A stretch of DNA of 64,000 nucleotides. It comes from Oscillatoria salina IIICB1. Its GTDB lineage: Bacteria > Cyanobacteriota > Cyanobacteriia > Cyanobacteriales > SIO1D9. The position numbers and the translations under genes are program-made. Positions 37,410 to 42,974 of the stretch are shown in pieces (within the stretch, counting starts at the first letter, position 1; every line of letters starts with the position of its first letter). The stretch lies in contig NZ_JAAHBQ010000009.1 of assembly GCF_020144665.1 (NCBI RefSeq), positions 1 through 64,000 of the forward strand, written 5' to 3'. The notes under the pieces were generated by a model, which saw nothing but the letters and a program-made list of their open reading frames with translations, did not search any database and was not told where the DNA came from.

Positions 37410-37432
37410 GGTCTGAAAAAAGTTAAAGGTTA

Positions 37433-37502
37433 ATAACTGATAACTGATAACTGATAACTGATAACTGATAACTGATAACTGATAACTGATAACTGATAAC
37501 TG
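37433..37502. repeat. Ten tandem copies of the heptamer ATAACTG
   Basis: Bases 37433-37502 are ten perfect head-to-tail copies of ATAACTG. The array starts 24 bases upstream of the hypothetical gene's start (37409) and ends one base before the pdxH stop codon. Such heptanucleotide repeats (STRR) are known in cyanobacteria. The same unit, as CAGTTAT, occurs at 20655-20770. Confidence 0.95.
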
Positions 37503-37503
37503 A

Positions 37504-38148
37504 CTAAGGTGCTAAACGCTCTCTAATCCAAGTATTATTTTCAACTCGTCGATAGCGCAGGCGATCGTGCAAACGACTAGGACGACCTTGCCAAAATTCT
37601 ATTTCTTCAGGAATTACTCGGTATCCTCCCCAGTGAGGAGGACGCGGGATTTCTTGCTCTCCATATTTAGTTTGTAATTCCTGAAAACGCTGTTCTAAAA
37701 CCTCGCGACTTTCAATTACTTGGCTTTGATTTGAAACCCAAGCACCAATTTGAGAATTTTCTGGACGACTGTGAAAATACTCGTCTGATTCTTCAGGAGA
37801 AACTTTCTCGACTCTACCCGCAATTCGCACTTGTCGCTCCAATTCTGCCCACCAAAAAACTAGCGCTGCACGAGCATTATCAGCAAGCTGTTGTCCTTTG
37901 TAACTACTGTAGTTGGTATAAAAGACAAAGCTTTGTTCGTCGAAATCTTTGAGTAGGACAATCCGAGCTGAGGGCGTACCATCTAGGTTAGCAGTAGCAA
38001 GAGTCATCGCGTTAGGTTCGCTTAGTTGAGCTTTAAGAGCTTGCTGGAACCAGGTTTGAAACTGCTTAAATGGATTTAGCTCAGCATCAGCTTCGCTCAA
38101 ACCAGCGCGAGTGTAGTTTTTCCGTAATTCACTAACAGGTATATCCAT
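37504..38148 (-). CDS. pdxH: Pyridoxamine 5'-phosphate oxidase
   Basis: This 214-residue flavoenzyme oxidises pyridoxine or pyridoxamine 5'-phosphate to PLP. Motifs include the N-terminal [61 protein letters not shown], and the C-terminal [19 protein letters not shown] typical of the family. Length and all blocks are normal. It is transcribed alone on the - strand and divergent from the LapA-scpA pair. The heptamer repeat array abuts its stop. Confidence 0.95.
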
Positions 38149-39490: not shown

Positions 39491-39530
39491 CTTGTGGAGA
39501 CGTTGCATGAACGTCTCTACAAGTTATTTT
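39489..39530. terminator. Bidirectional terminator between scpA and the DUF3370 gene
   Basis: Arms AACTTGTGGAGACGTT (39489-39504) and AACGTCTCTACAAGTT (39510-39525) pair over 16 bases with one G-U pair and loop GCATG, followed by ATTTTATT. The left arm begins inside the scpA stop codon. The GGAGACGTTGCATGAACGTCTC core is of the same type as a palindromic repeat common in cyanobacteria. Confidence 0.85.
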
Positions 39531-40884
39531 ATTCAGTTAAAGTTTTCACTGTCAAAACTTGTGGTGGGGTAGCATCGGGAGGATAGAGAAAATCAACTTT
39601 TACCGTGCGAGTTTCTTTTGGTGGTATGGTTAAATTTGCTAAAGGTTCTGCTTGTTGACCTCGTTGTTGAACTAAGTGAAAATAATTATTAACAGAATTA
39701 CCTTGTTCGTCCTCGTAGCTAATTTCTACTGTACCTCGGAAAAAAACTTGTGGGGCTGGAGGTTCAAGAAAGCGTAATCCTTGGGTTAAAATATCTTGTT
39801 TGATGGGAGTTTGTAAAGTAACAGCTACAGTTTTGCTAGCTTCAGTTGGGTTGTAAAAAGGTAAGGTTAAACTGTATTCTACGCCATAGTTACCGTGAGC
39901 GCTATAAGCCGTATCAGGATAGCGCACTAGCATCGGTGCAGTTTGAATTTGATTTGTTCCTAGTCTACCACCAGCGAGGGTACTAATACCATAAGAAAAA
40001 GCTTCACCGACGCCGGGAATCGTAAGTTTTTCGCTACGATTATTATCGGTTAAAGTAGCTTTCCATTGGGAACCTTGGGAAACGCCCGCAACTCGTCCGT
40101 AAATTATACCACCAGTGGTATTATTGGGAGGAGTCGGGACGCGATCGCGTGGCGTAACTAATTCTCCTTCTGCTAATAATTCTTTCCATTCTGCTAATGT
40201 CGGTTTCCTCTCTTCTCCTCTTTCATCTACAGGCGCAAACATTGCTAAACTTGCTGCATAAACTTCCCCGTTACTATCTAATTTTATGTAAGTAGAACGA
40301 CCATTTAAAGGTGGTTCCCATTCTCTTACTGGAATAGGCAAATTAAGTAACATTCTACTTTCTCCGGGTGGAATAACTAACTCGTCAGGAAAGTTTTCTT
40401 GTCTTACTCCCCTTAAGATATCATTCATTACTCGACTACCGGGTCCCGCGTAAACATTTCCTTCTGGGTTTGGTACTTGAGAAGGTAGTTTAATAAATGG
40501 TGCATCTGGTCGAGAAAGATAACTTGCTGCGGCTAAAATGTCAACTGTTACTGTTTCCTTAGTTGGATTATGTAACATTATTCCTAGATACAAAGTTCGT
40601 AAATCTTCTGGGGTTGGCGGTTTAGCAATATGATGGGCGAAAATGTCAAAACGTCCTTGAAAAGGAAAGCTTAAATGGGCTTCGGGATTAGCTTTGTTTT
40701 CTTTGGCAAAAGTGGAAAGTAAAATTCCTTCAGATAAGACTACTTCTGGGCTATTACTGTTAAATACGGGTACGGAATTTAATTGTCCTGCTAAAGGACG
40801 AACTTCTTGAGGTTTCACTATTTCTTGAGGAGTAGGTTCGGGTGGTGGTGTTGTTTGAGCGAAAAGTAAGCCAAGTAAAAACAT
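39529..40884 (-). CDS. DUF3370 family protein
   Basis: This 451-residue protein is a cyanobacterial DUF3370 member. A short hydrophobic N-terminus (MFLLGLLFAQ) suggests export. The mature part starts with a proline-rich linker, then VRPLAGQLNSVPVFNSNSPE and beta-rich sequence with PGESRMLLNLPIP and LPFYNPTEASKTVAVTLQTP. Conserved Gly/Pro-rich turns are seen throughout, and the family's function is unknown. It converges on scpA with a shared terminator. Confidence 0.85.
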   Translation of the reverse strand: MFLLGLLFAQTTPPPEPTPQEIVKPQEVRPLAGQLNSVPVFNSNSPEVVLSEGILLSTFAKENKANPEAHLSFPFQGRFDIFAHHIAKPPTPEDLRTLYLGIMLHNPTKETVTVDILAAASYLSRPDAPFIKLPSQVPNPEGNVYAGPGSRVMNDILRGVRQENFPDELVIPPGESRMLLNLPIPVREWEPPLNGRSTYIKLDSNGEVYAASLAMFAPVDERGEERKPTLAEWKELLAEGELVTPRDRVPTPPNNTTGGIIYGRVAGVSQGSQWKATLTDNNRSEKLTIPGVGEAFSYGISTLAGGRLGTNQIQTAPMLVRYPDTAYSAHGNYGVEYSLTLPFYNPTEASKTVAVTLQTPIKQDILTQGLRFLEPPAPQVFFRGTVEISYEDEQGNSVNNYFHLVQQRGQQAEPLANLTIPPKETRTVKVDFLYPPDATPPQVLTVKTLTE

Positions 40885-41127: not shown

Positions 41128-42285
41128 TTATGAAATCTGTAAGTCACACTGGTTAAAAAGATAGTTTATCGCAGCGAAAAGTCGTTCTAATTCTTGAATT
41201 GTGTAAAAGGTAATATTTTTAGTAAAAGTGTTTGCTTTTAGTTGACCAAATTGCCAAGTAAATCCATTAGTAATAATACTAAAAATTTTTAGATTCGGTG
41301 CTTGGTTAAGTTGCTGTGCGGCAATTGTTTCTACTAATGATTCGATTAACATTGTGTTGAAATTAGCTGGTTTTGCTTTGACTAAGAGTAAATAAGGTTG
41401 GTCGAAAACAATTTTTCCGAAAGAAGATCGTTGAGCTAAAATATATTCAGGAAAATAGGATAAATCGCTTTCGTAGTTTAAAGGTTGATGACTCCACAAA
41501 AGTAATTTGCTGCGATAAGATTTCCAGGCTTCTTTTAAAATTGGATAAATTAAGTTTTCGCAAATAGCAGATTCGCAATTATCGACTATTCCCTCCTTCA
41601 TTACTGTTTCTAAGTCTTCTCGAAAGTGGTTGGGAATTTTTAATTGAGTTTCGACAATGAAATTGGCTTCTTCATATTTAATTTGAAATTCTTTGACAAC
41701 TTCACCAAGAGTTTGATAATGGCTGGTAGGAATTTTTAACTTGCAAGTGATAGAAGTGTTGACAAGGCGTACTAATTTGTTGATTATTGTGCAAAAATCT
41801 GTTATAATTAGCGGTGAATTTTCCGGAGTAAGCAGGGGAATGTGAACGAAAATACACAGACTTGCTGAGTTGGTTTGTTGGAGATAGTTCAAGACTTCGT
41901 AGTATAAACCTTCACAAACAAATTTTCCGGCATCGTGGCTTATTTCGGTAAATTCTAAGCCAGTTAATAAGTCTGATAAATCTACTTTTGTTTGTAGTAA
42001 GAATGCGCCGCAAGTAGCATTTGATTCAATAGTTAGTTGGGTGCGCGATTCTGCCATTCCACAACAAACGATCAGATCGGGCTGCCATTGTTGAATTTTG
42101 CCGATCGCGTTTTTACTCGCTGTTTCGGTATCGACAACAAGCTGTCTTAAGAAGGCTATCTCAGCATCAGGAAAATTAGATCCGGCAATTTGAGCTAATA
42201 AGTCGTCTGAGGAGTTAGACTTTTGGTGGGGTAGCCAGGTTTGAAAGGAGGTTAAGAGGATTTTTCGCTTCCAGGAATTAATCAC
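41128..42285 (-). CDS. Peptidase C15-like domain fused to a PD-(D/E)XK-like domain
   Basis: This 385-residue protein appears to have two domains. Residues 8-165 resemble pyroglutamyl peptidase I (C15). Candidate catalytic residues are Glu87 in QLTIESNA, Cys124 in KFVCEGLYY and His148 in IFVHIP. Residues about 225-370 resemble the N-terminal nuclease-like domain of cyanobacterial restriction-R-like proteins: YFPEYILAQRS, GKIVFDQPYLLLVKAKPANFN, IITNGFTWQFG. The usual (D/E)-x-K is replaced by K-A-K (Lys303), so nuclease activity is doubtful. The start is GTG at 42285. It diverges from hisH by 53 bases. I know of no function for such a fusion. Confidence 0.72.
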   Translation of the reverse strand: MINSWKRKILLTSFQTWLPHQKSNSSDDLLAQIAGSNFPDAEIAFLRQLVVDTETASKNAIGKIQQWQPDLIVCCGMAESRTQLTIESNATCGAFLLQTKVDLSDLLTGLEFTEISHDAGKFVCEGLYYEVLNYLQQTNSASLCIFVHIPLLTPENSPLIITDFCTIINKLVRLVNTSITCKLKIPTSHYQTLGEVVKEFQIKYEEANFIVETQLKIPNHFREDLETVMKEGIVDNCESAICENLIYPILKEAWKSYRSKLLLWSHQPLNYESDLSYFPEYILAQRSSFGKIVFDQPYLLLVKAKPANFNTMLIESLVETIAAQQLNQAPNLKIFSIITNGFTWQFGQLKANTFTKNITFYTIQELERLFAAINYLFNQCDLQIS

Positions 42286-42338
42286 AACTCAAGTTGATAC
42301 ACTAAAGTAAACATAGCAAGCTAAGGGAGTTAAATTTG

Positions 42339-42974
42339 ATGGCGGCGATCGCGGTAATCGATTATGATATGGGAAATTTGCACTCTGCTTGTAAGGGTTT
42401 GGAGAAAGCGGGTGCAACTACTAAGATAACTGATTCTGCTGACGAAATTGCTCGCTCTGAGGCGATCGTTTTACCTGGAGTAGGGGCTTTCGATCCGGCT
42501 GTACGACATTTGCGATCGCGCGATTTGGTGGAACCGATTCGTGAGGCGATCGCGTCTGGTAAACCTTTTTTGGGTATTTGTTTGGGTTTACAAATTCTTT
42601 TTGATGGTTCGGAAGAAGGAAATGAACCGGGTTTAGGTATCATTCCTGGAATGGTACGTCGCTTTCGTTCGGAACCAAATTTGACTATTCCTCACATGGG
42701 TTGGAATCAGTTACATTTTACCCAAAAAAATCTCGCTCTTTGGCGGCAATTACCAAGCGATCCTTATCTTTATTTTGTCCATTCTTATTACGTCGATCCG
42801 AGCGATTCTGCTTACACTGCGGCTACAGTTACTCATGGTAGCCAAACTGTGACTGCGGCGATCGCCAGAGATAATTTAATGGCTGTTCAATTTCACCCAG
42901 AAAAGTCTTCTACTTTGGGGTTACAAATTCTCAGTAATTTTGTCCGCTTGATTCGTGCTCGGGTTGCTGCTTAA
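42339..42974 (+). CDS. hisH: Imidazole glycerol phosphate synthase, glutamine amidotransferase subunit
   Basis: This 211-residue class I amidotransferase supplies ammonia to HisF for histidine and AICAR synthesis. The catalytic Cys is in FLGICLGLQIL, and the His and Glu are in AVQFHPEKSS. The N-terminal VIDYDMGNLHSACKGLEKAG and the LPGVGAF oxyanion segment are typical. An AGGGAG site precedes the ATG at 42339; an in-frame TTG three bases earlier is less likely. HisF is not in the window. rsmD follows 242 bases downstream on the same strand. Confidence 0.97.
   Translation: MAAIAVIDYDMGNLHSACKGLEKAGATTKITDSADEIARSEAIVLPGVGAFDPAVRHLRSRDLVEPIREAIASGKPFLGICLGLQILFDGSEEGNEPGLGIIPGMVRRFRSEPNLTIPHMGWNQLHFTQKNLALWRQLPSDPYLYFVHSYYVDPSDSAYTAATVTHGSQTVTAAIARDNLMAVQFHPEKSSTLGLQILSNFVRLIRARVAA

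Follow-up and report, generated by a model that had tools for sequence, protein, structure and literature searches.

The window analyzed here, a 64,000-nucleotide stretch of the Oscillatoria salina IIICB1 genome, carries on contig C9 a gene in which a Peptidase C15-like domain (N-half) is joined to a PD-(D/E)XK nuclease-like domain (C-half). The reading that we favor, with a probability of roughly 0.6, is that a stray nuclease gene, a CRISPR accessory, came to lie behind the peptidase gene, fused with it and became a dead appendage, and that the peptidase-like part probably keeps its job. The parts of this fusion are known and their combination is new, and the whole looks like a curious one-off and not like a new system. 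In the assembly, the domain pair is real and unusual: as a first-pass annotation of this DNA had proposed, both halves share a single open frame (Table 1), the coordinates of which were given correctly and without the strand. Chance can be ruled out, because both halves have many homologs at 50 to 60% identity.

Table 1. Positions of the fusion gene, its domains and diagnostic codons, and the two neighboring genes in the window
Feature	Position	Strand	Basis
Fusion ORF, 385 aa, GTG start	41128..42285	minus	one stop-free frame of 385 codons
Peptidase C15-like domain, residues 1-175	41761..42285	minus	Pfam, model, fold search
Glu87 codon (triad)	42025..42027	minus	identical in 30/30 aligned rows
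Cys124 codon (triad)	41914..41916	minus	identical in 30/30 aligned rows
His148 codon (triad)	41842..41844	minus	identical in 30/30 aligned rows
Junction, residues 176-184	41734..41760	minus	alignment and codons; approximate end of many standalone N-half proteins
ATT (Ile185), in the column that holds the start Met in standalone C-half proteins	41731..41733	minus	alignment and codons
PD-(D/E)XK-like domain, residues 185-385, PADLOC PD_DExK family, degenerate motif	41131..41733	minus	profile, model, fold search
Glu280 codon, retained motif acid	41446..41448	minus	D or E in 54/55 other rows
Codons 303-305, K-A-K versus E-A-K in relatives	41371..41379	minus	E in 54/55 other rows at 303
Glu315 codon versus Gln in relatives	41341..41343	minus	Q in 54/55 other rows
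DUF3370 gene, frequent downstream neighbor of the N-half gene	39529..40884	minus	same strand in 36/80 named loci
Class-I glutamine amidotransferase gene, usual divergent neighbor	42336..42974	plus	Pfam GATase; divergent in 69/80 named loci

The N-half matched the Pfam Peptidase_C15 profile (PF01470) with an E value of 1.8e-10 and 41.6 bits (cut-off, 22.7), and scored 43.2 bits with the NCBIfam equivalog for pyroglutamyl-peptidase I (TIGR00504), far from its cut-off of 201.75 bits. A structural model of residues 1 to 184, built with 29 relatives, had a pLDDT of 93.7 and aligned with pyrrolidone carboxyl peptidases at Z scores of 20.0 to 22.7 (rmsd of 1.9 to 2.3 Å over 157 to 173 residues), which confirmed the C15 fold; nucleosidases, the next group of matches, followed at only Z 12. 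The Glu/Cys/His set of peptidase C15 that the first-pass annotation had recognized corresponds to E87, C124 and H148, which align with the solved peptidases and are invariant in all 30 rows, the window's own sequence included. The N-half therefore shares its fold and triad positions with pyroglutamyl peptidase I (PDB 1aug and 3rnz), but it falls below the equivalog cut-offs, is followed by an additional nuclease-like domain and, in the alignment, has a Glu-to-Cys segment about 26 residues shorter than that of the solved peptidase 4gxh_A. Its divergence is ordinary: changes affect 4 of 136 conserved nucleotide sites, and its end branch (0.60) is as long as the median. Judged from the sequence, the N-half is most likely a pyroglutamyl-peptidase-like cysteine peptidase in which the segment preceding the catalytic Cys is shortened; with fold and triad kept, it most likely retains the function of its standalone orthologs.

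These orthologs represent a standalone cyanobacterial gene of 166 to 238 codons. Among 80 named loci, the best 80 of 339 N-half relatives, the gene was standalone in every case, and no C-half homolog was found in flanking stretches up to 3.5 kb long, although some of these loci stop at contig ends and some belong to the same species as other genomes searched. A HisH-like gene lay divergently upstream in 69 of the 80 loci, 36 of which also carried a DUF3370 gene on the same strand as the N-half gene. The window shows the same order of hisH, as we presume its glutamine amidotransferase gene to be named, N-half and DUF3370, with the C-half placed between the latter two. The first-pass annotation had itself raised the prospect of a one-off assembly artifact. 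This was borne out to the extent that the fusion is one-off in everything searched, but the gene order preserved on both sides of the C-half insert makes a chimeric contig unlikely, and we rejected it.

The main doubt concerns the junction, where another kind of sequencing or assembly error would make two adjacent genes appear as one: an indel near codons 160 to 171 would mask the peptidase stop, and the C-half would be a separate gene or pseudogene. A one-base error could indeed mimic the fusion, because stops of another frame lie at about codons 161, 167 and 171, near the usual end of standalone N-half proteins, and the fusion was seen only once among the genomes and loci searched. We nevertheless regard such an error as unlikely. 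A separate C-half would have lost its usual start, as ATT replaces ATG and a codon scan found no in-frame ATG, GTG or TTG between codons 132 and 229, the latter being the next in-frame start; on the same grounds we rejected independent translation of the C-half. Moreover, the C-half frame is open at 61% identity, which is a rare outcome of neutral decay, and the flanking gene order speaks against a chimeric contig. As for footprints of an insertion, only short, chance-like repeats were found, none of them judged significant. Elsewhere in the window, a tandem repeat with a 7-base unit occupies positions 37419-37509, mostly between two ORFs.

The C-half matched the PADLOC family PD_DExK (PDLC01472) over residues 238 to 381 with an E value of 9.6e-35. 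PADLOC describes this family as Cas-associated, a point that the first-pass annotation had missed when it likened this half to the nuclease-like domain of restriction-R-type proteins. The likeness itself was confirmed: a model of residues 182 to 385 (window positions 41131-41742), built with 45 relatives, had a pLDDT of 90.9 and matched the restriction endonuclease domains of BpuSI (3s1s; Z 14.1) and DrdV (7lvv; Z 13.1) and an HsdR fragment (3h1t; Z 10.7). The fold is the same in all of them, whereas the window protein is devoid of methylase and helicase parts and has Lys in place of the catalytic Glu. The highest structural matches were mitoribosome chains, presumably mL37 and mL65 (Z 13.8 to 15.5 at 6 to 11% identity), which we read only as a shared fold; they hint that dead nuclease folds serve as structural parts elsewhere. 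The type III effector Can2 and NucC share the nuclease core fold at a Z of about 7, which lies in the range of common arrangements and may reflect nothing else, and we gave these matches no weight; in addition, the C-half had no CARF match at PADLOC and its motif is dead.

The K-A-K noted earlier at the active site proved correct. E280 and K305 are kept, but K303 replaces the Glu and the motif Gln is lost, so that the intact (D/E)...(D/E)-x-K arrangement is absent; by comparison, the D/E, E-x-K and Gln residues are all intact in 53 of the 55 other rows of the alignment. Because the catalytic motif is lost, the C-half should not cut nucleic acid. The window copy differs from the PD_DExK family in being fused to a peptidase, in having lost E-x-K, Gln and its start codon, and in that no cas genes were found nearby. 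Another degenerate member of the family, encoded by the standalone gene L016:697-1332, has Q-V-R for E-A-K and His for Gln.

To judge how far the C-half has diverged, we compared it with its homologs in an alignment and tree of 56 rows, from which we left out short matches, identical rows and homologs with E values above 1e-20, such as L031, a paralog from the own genome. It differed at 11 of 50 near-invariant columns, more than any other of the 56 rows (median of 1; next was L016 with 8), and its end branch of 1.04 (median of 0.15) was tied for the longest with that of L029; L019, L016 and L023 were nearly equal. At first and second codon positions on which relatives agree, 25 of 218 sites were changed; L031, a distant homolog, was the only one of 45 other rows to score higher (77/220), with L023 (25/223) and L016 (24/220) close by. 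The C-half is also poorer in GC than the N-half (32% versus 41%). The changed columns and codon sites, the long branch and the GC difference would all fit a C-half that is plain decaying baggage, recently fused, free of selection and tolerated by the peptidase. We consider this quite unlikely, since about 200 codons contain neither a stop nor an indel relative to close relatives and the domain is still modeled confidently as a fold. When three intact relatives were evolved neutrally by substitutions only (400 runs each), just 0 to 0.25% of the runs remained stop-free at 61% identity and 2 to 3.5% at 80%. Because neutral change so rarely leaves an open frame, at least part of the divergence arose under protein selection; that selection may be older than the fusion, as may part of the divergence itself.

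For the genomic context of the C-half family, type III CRISPR genes were detected with eight profiles seeded with PADLOC-recognized proteins. In 54 fetched loci, picked nonrandomly from the best matches, 28 of 56 C-half homologs lay within 3 kb of such genes, and 23 of the 56 directly adjoined one on the same strand (less than 150 nt). All linked homologs were among those with at least 50% identity (28/48, versus 0/8 below). As a control, none of 26 stretches, comprising 23 N-half loci, the window and two more stretches of its contig, had a type III profile match. Consistently, the fused copy does not lie in a cas locus: no ORF of the window or of the rest of contig C9 matched the eight profiles, and no CRISPR-like array was found in the window. 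Because the other half of the homologs, to which the two with the highest identity (L136 and L135) belong, were not near type III genes, we can only infer that the C-half descends from a CRISPR operon.

In many cyanobacterial type III operons, two cas7-like genes flank a fixed slot that holds the standalone PD-(D/E)XK gene (L124:6107-8644, L138, L126, L123 and others; L236-L263). With a cas7-like protein of the own genome as the query, 39 of 291 genomes matched, and the slot was obtained for 30 of these, own genome included. The slot after the cas7-like gene held the nuclease gene in 18 loci, was empty in 9 (the own genome among them), was a 675-nt gap without a recognized homolog in 2 and was cut off in 1. 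The own genome has type III genes on several contigs, and its operon on contig C49 (L230) corresponds gene for gene to the slot type but lacks the nuclease gene, its two cas7-like genes being separated by 47 nt. A relocation of the nuclease gene from this operon is attractive but unproved: the empty slot is no proof, because 8 of the 29 other operons have an empty slot as well. The tree does not fix the donor either, because of the long branch of the C-half. Apart from the fusion, this genome encodes one distant C-half homolog elsewhere (L031, 26% identity). At L032:776-2097 (G383), the nuclease gene occurs as two tandem copies, and a type III operon with an empty slot lies about 5 kb away. 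Passages of PMC11229360, PMC8730458 and PMC12669027 mention no standalone PD-DExK gene in type III-D loci, and the literature searched, as far as its text was accessible and mostly outside subscription journals, contained no study of the cas7-slot gene.

We found no second peptidase-nuclease fusion among the matches listed for 60 relatives, nor among the best 4 to 5 candidates per genome in 386 genomes of the phylum and 388 of the order. These three sets overlap and, the own genome apart, contain no member of the same family or genus, and the rarity claim assumes that any fusion would rank first. Only 5 of 72,556 plasmid records matched, none covering 80% of the query; 13 pattern matches in viruses yielded no relative of the C-half, and a first protein scan of genome contigs brought up no relative. 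No title or abstract opening in the literature searched, again mostly outside subscription journals, described such a fusion. The C-half family does have other fusion partners, in three loci: L078:7602-8849 (415 aa) joins a RAMP/cas7-like C-terminal part to the family inside a type III locus, L082:5908-7062 (384 aa) joins DUF29 to it, and the family member at L079:5255-6202 has an extension without a Pfam match.

The RAMP/cas7-like fusion hints at a physical association, and the own genome, with type III genes on several contigs and one operon orthologous to nuclease-carrying ones, would offer a partner. The dead nuclease domain might then dock the peptidase on the cell's own type III machinery and turn it into an effector. 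We regard this coupling as very unlikely, given that the fused gene lies on C9 and the operon on C49, that none of 23 N-half loci had type III genes near it and that no second fusion was found in the searched genomes. That the fusion is a CRISPR-linked peptidase, in which a former docking domain brings a pyroglutamyl-peptidase-like enzyme to type III complexes, seems highly improbable; if true, the O. salina IIICB1 lineage would have an RNA-triggered peptidase branch of immunity. Least likely of all is the role that the first-pass annotation had suggested, in sensing or processing or as a regulator of N-terminal pyroglutamate. Its structural description, a C15-like fold with its triad fused in frame to a dead PD-(D/E)XK domain, held, and the fold and triad would fit such a role. 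The proposed function found no support, as what is widely shared is a peptidase-like gene that stands alone, nothing pointed to regulation, and the fusion did not recur in the genomes, 80 loci or plasmids searched.

Collectively, these data favor the capture of a stray accessory gene. A standalone PD-(D/E)XK gene of the Cas-associated family would have come between the C15-like gene and its DUF3370 neighbor, and we infer that the two frames then joined, the outcome of which is seen in synteny and alignment. The nuclease half is without its start codon, the catalytic Glu and the Gln of the motif and, going by that motif, probably cuts no nucleic acid; the peptidase half would keep the function of its standalone orthologs. 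The C-half would persist as a folded, noncatalytic appendage that is tolerated or perhaps used for binding or oligomerization. Most parsimoniously, an accessory gene that is dispensable and often linked to CRISPR was captured behind a conserved peptidase gene, became joined to it in frame and lost its catalytic motif. The fusion is most likely a lineage-specific accident in which the peptidase-like half probably still works. It would exemplify how a gene from a Cas-associated nuclease family can become joined to a conserved single-copy partner and, despite the loss of its catalytic motif, preserve an open frame and a domain that can fold, and it draws attention to the standalone PD-(D/E)XK gene that fills, or is missing from, a fixed cas7 slot in cyanobacterial type III operons.
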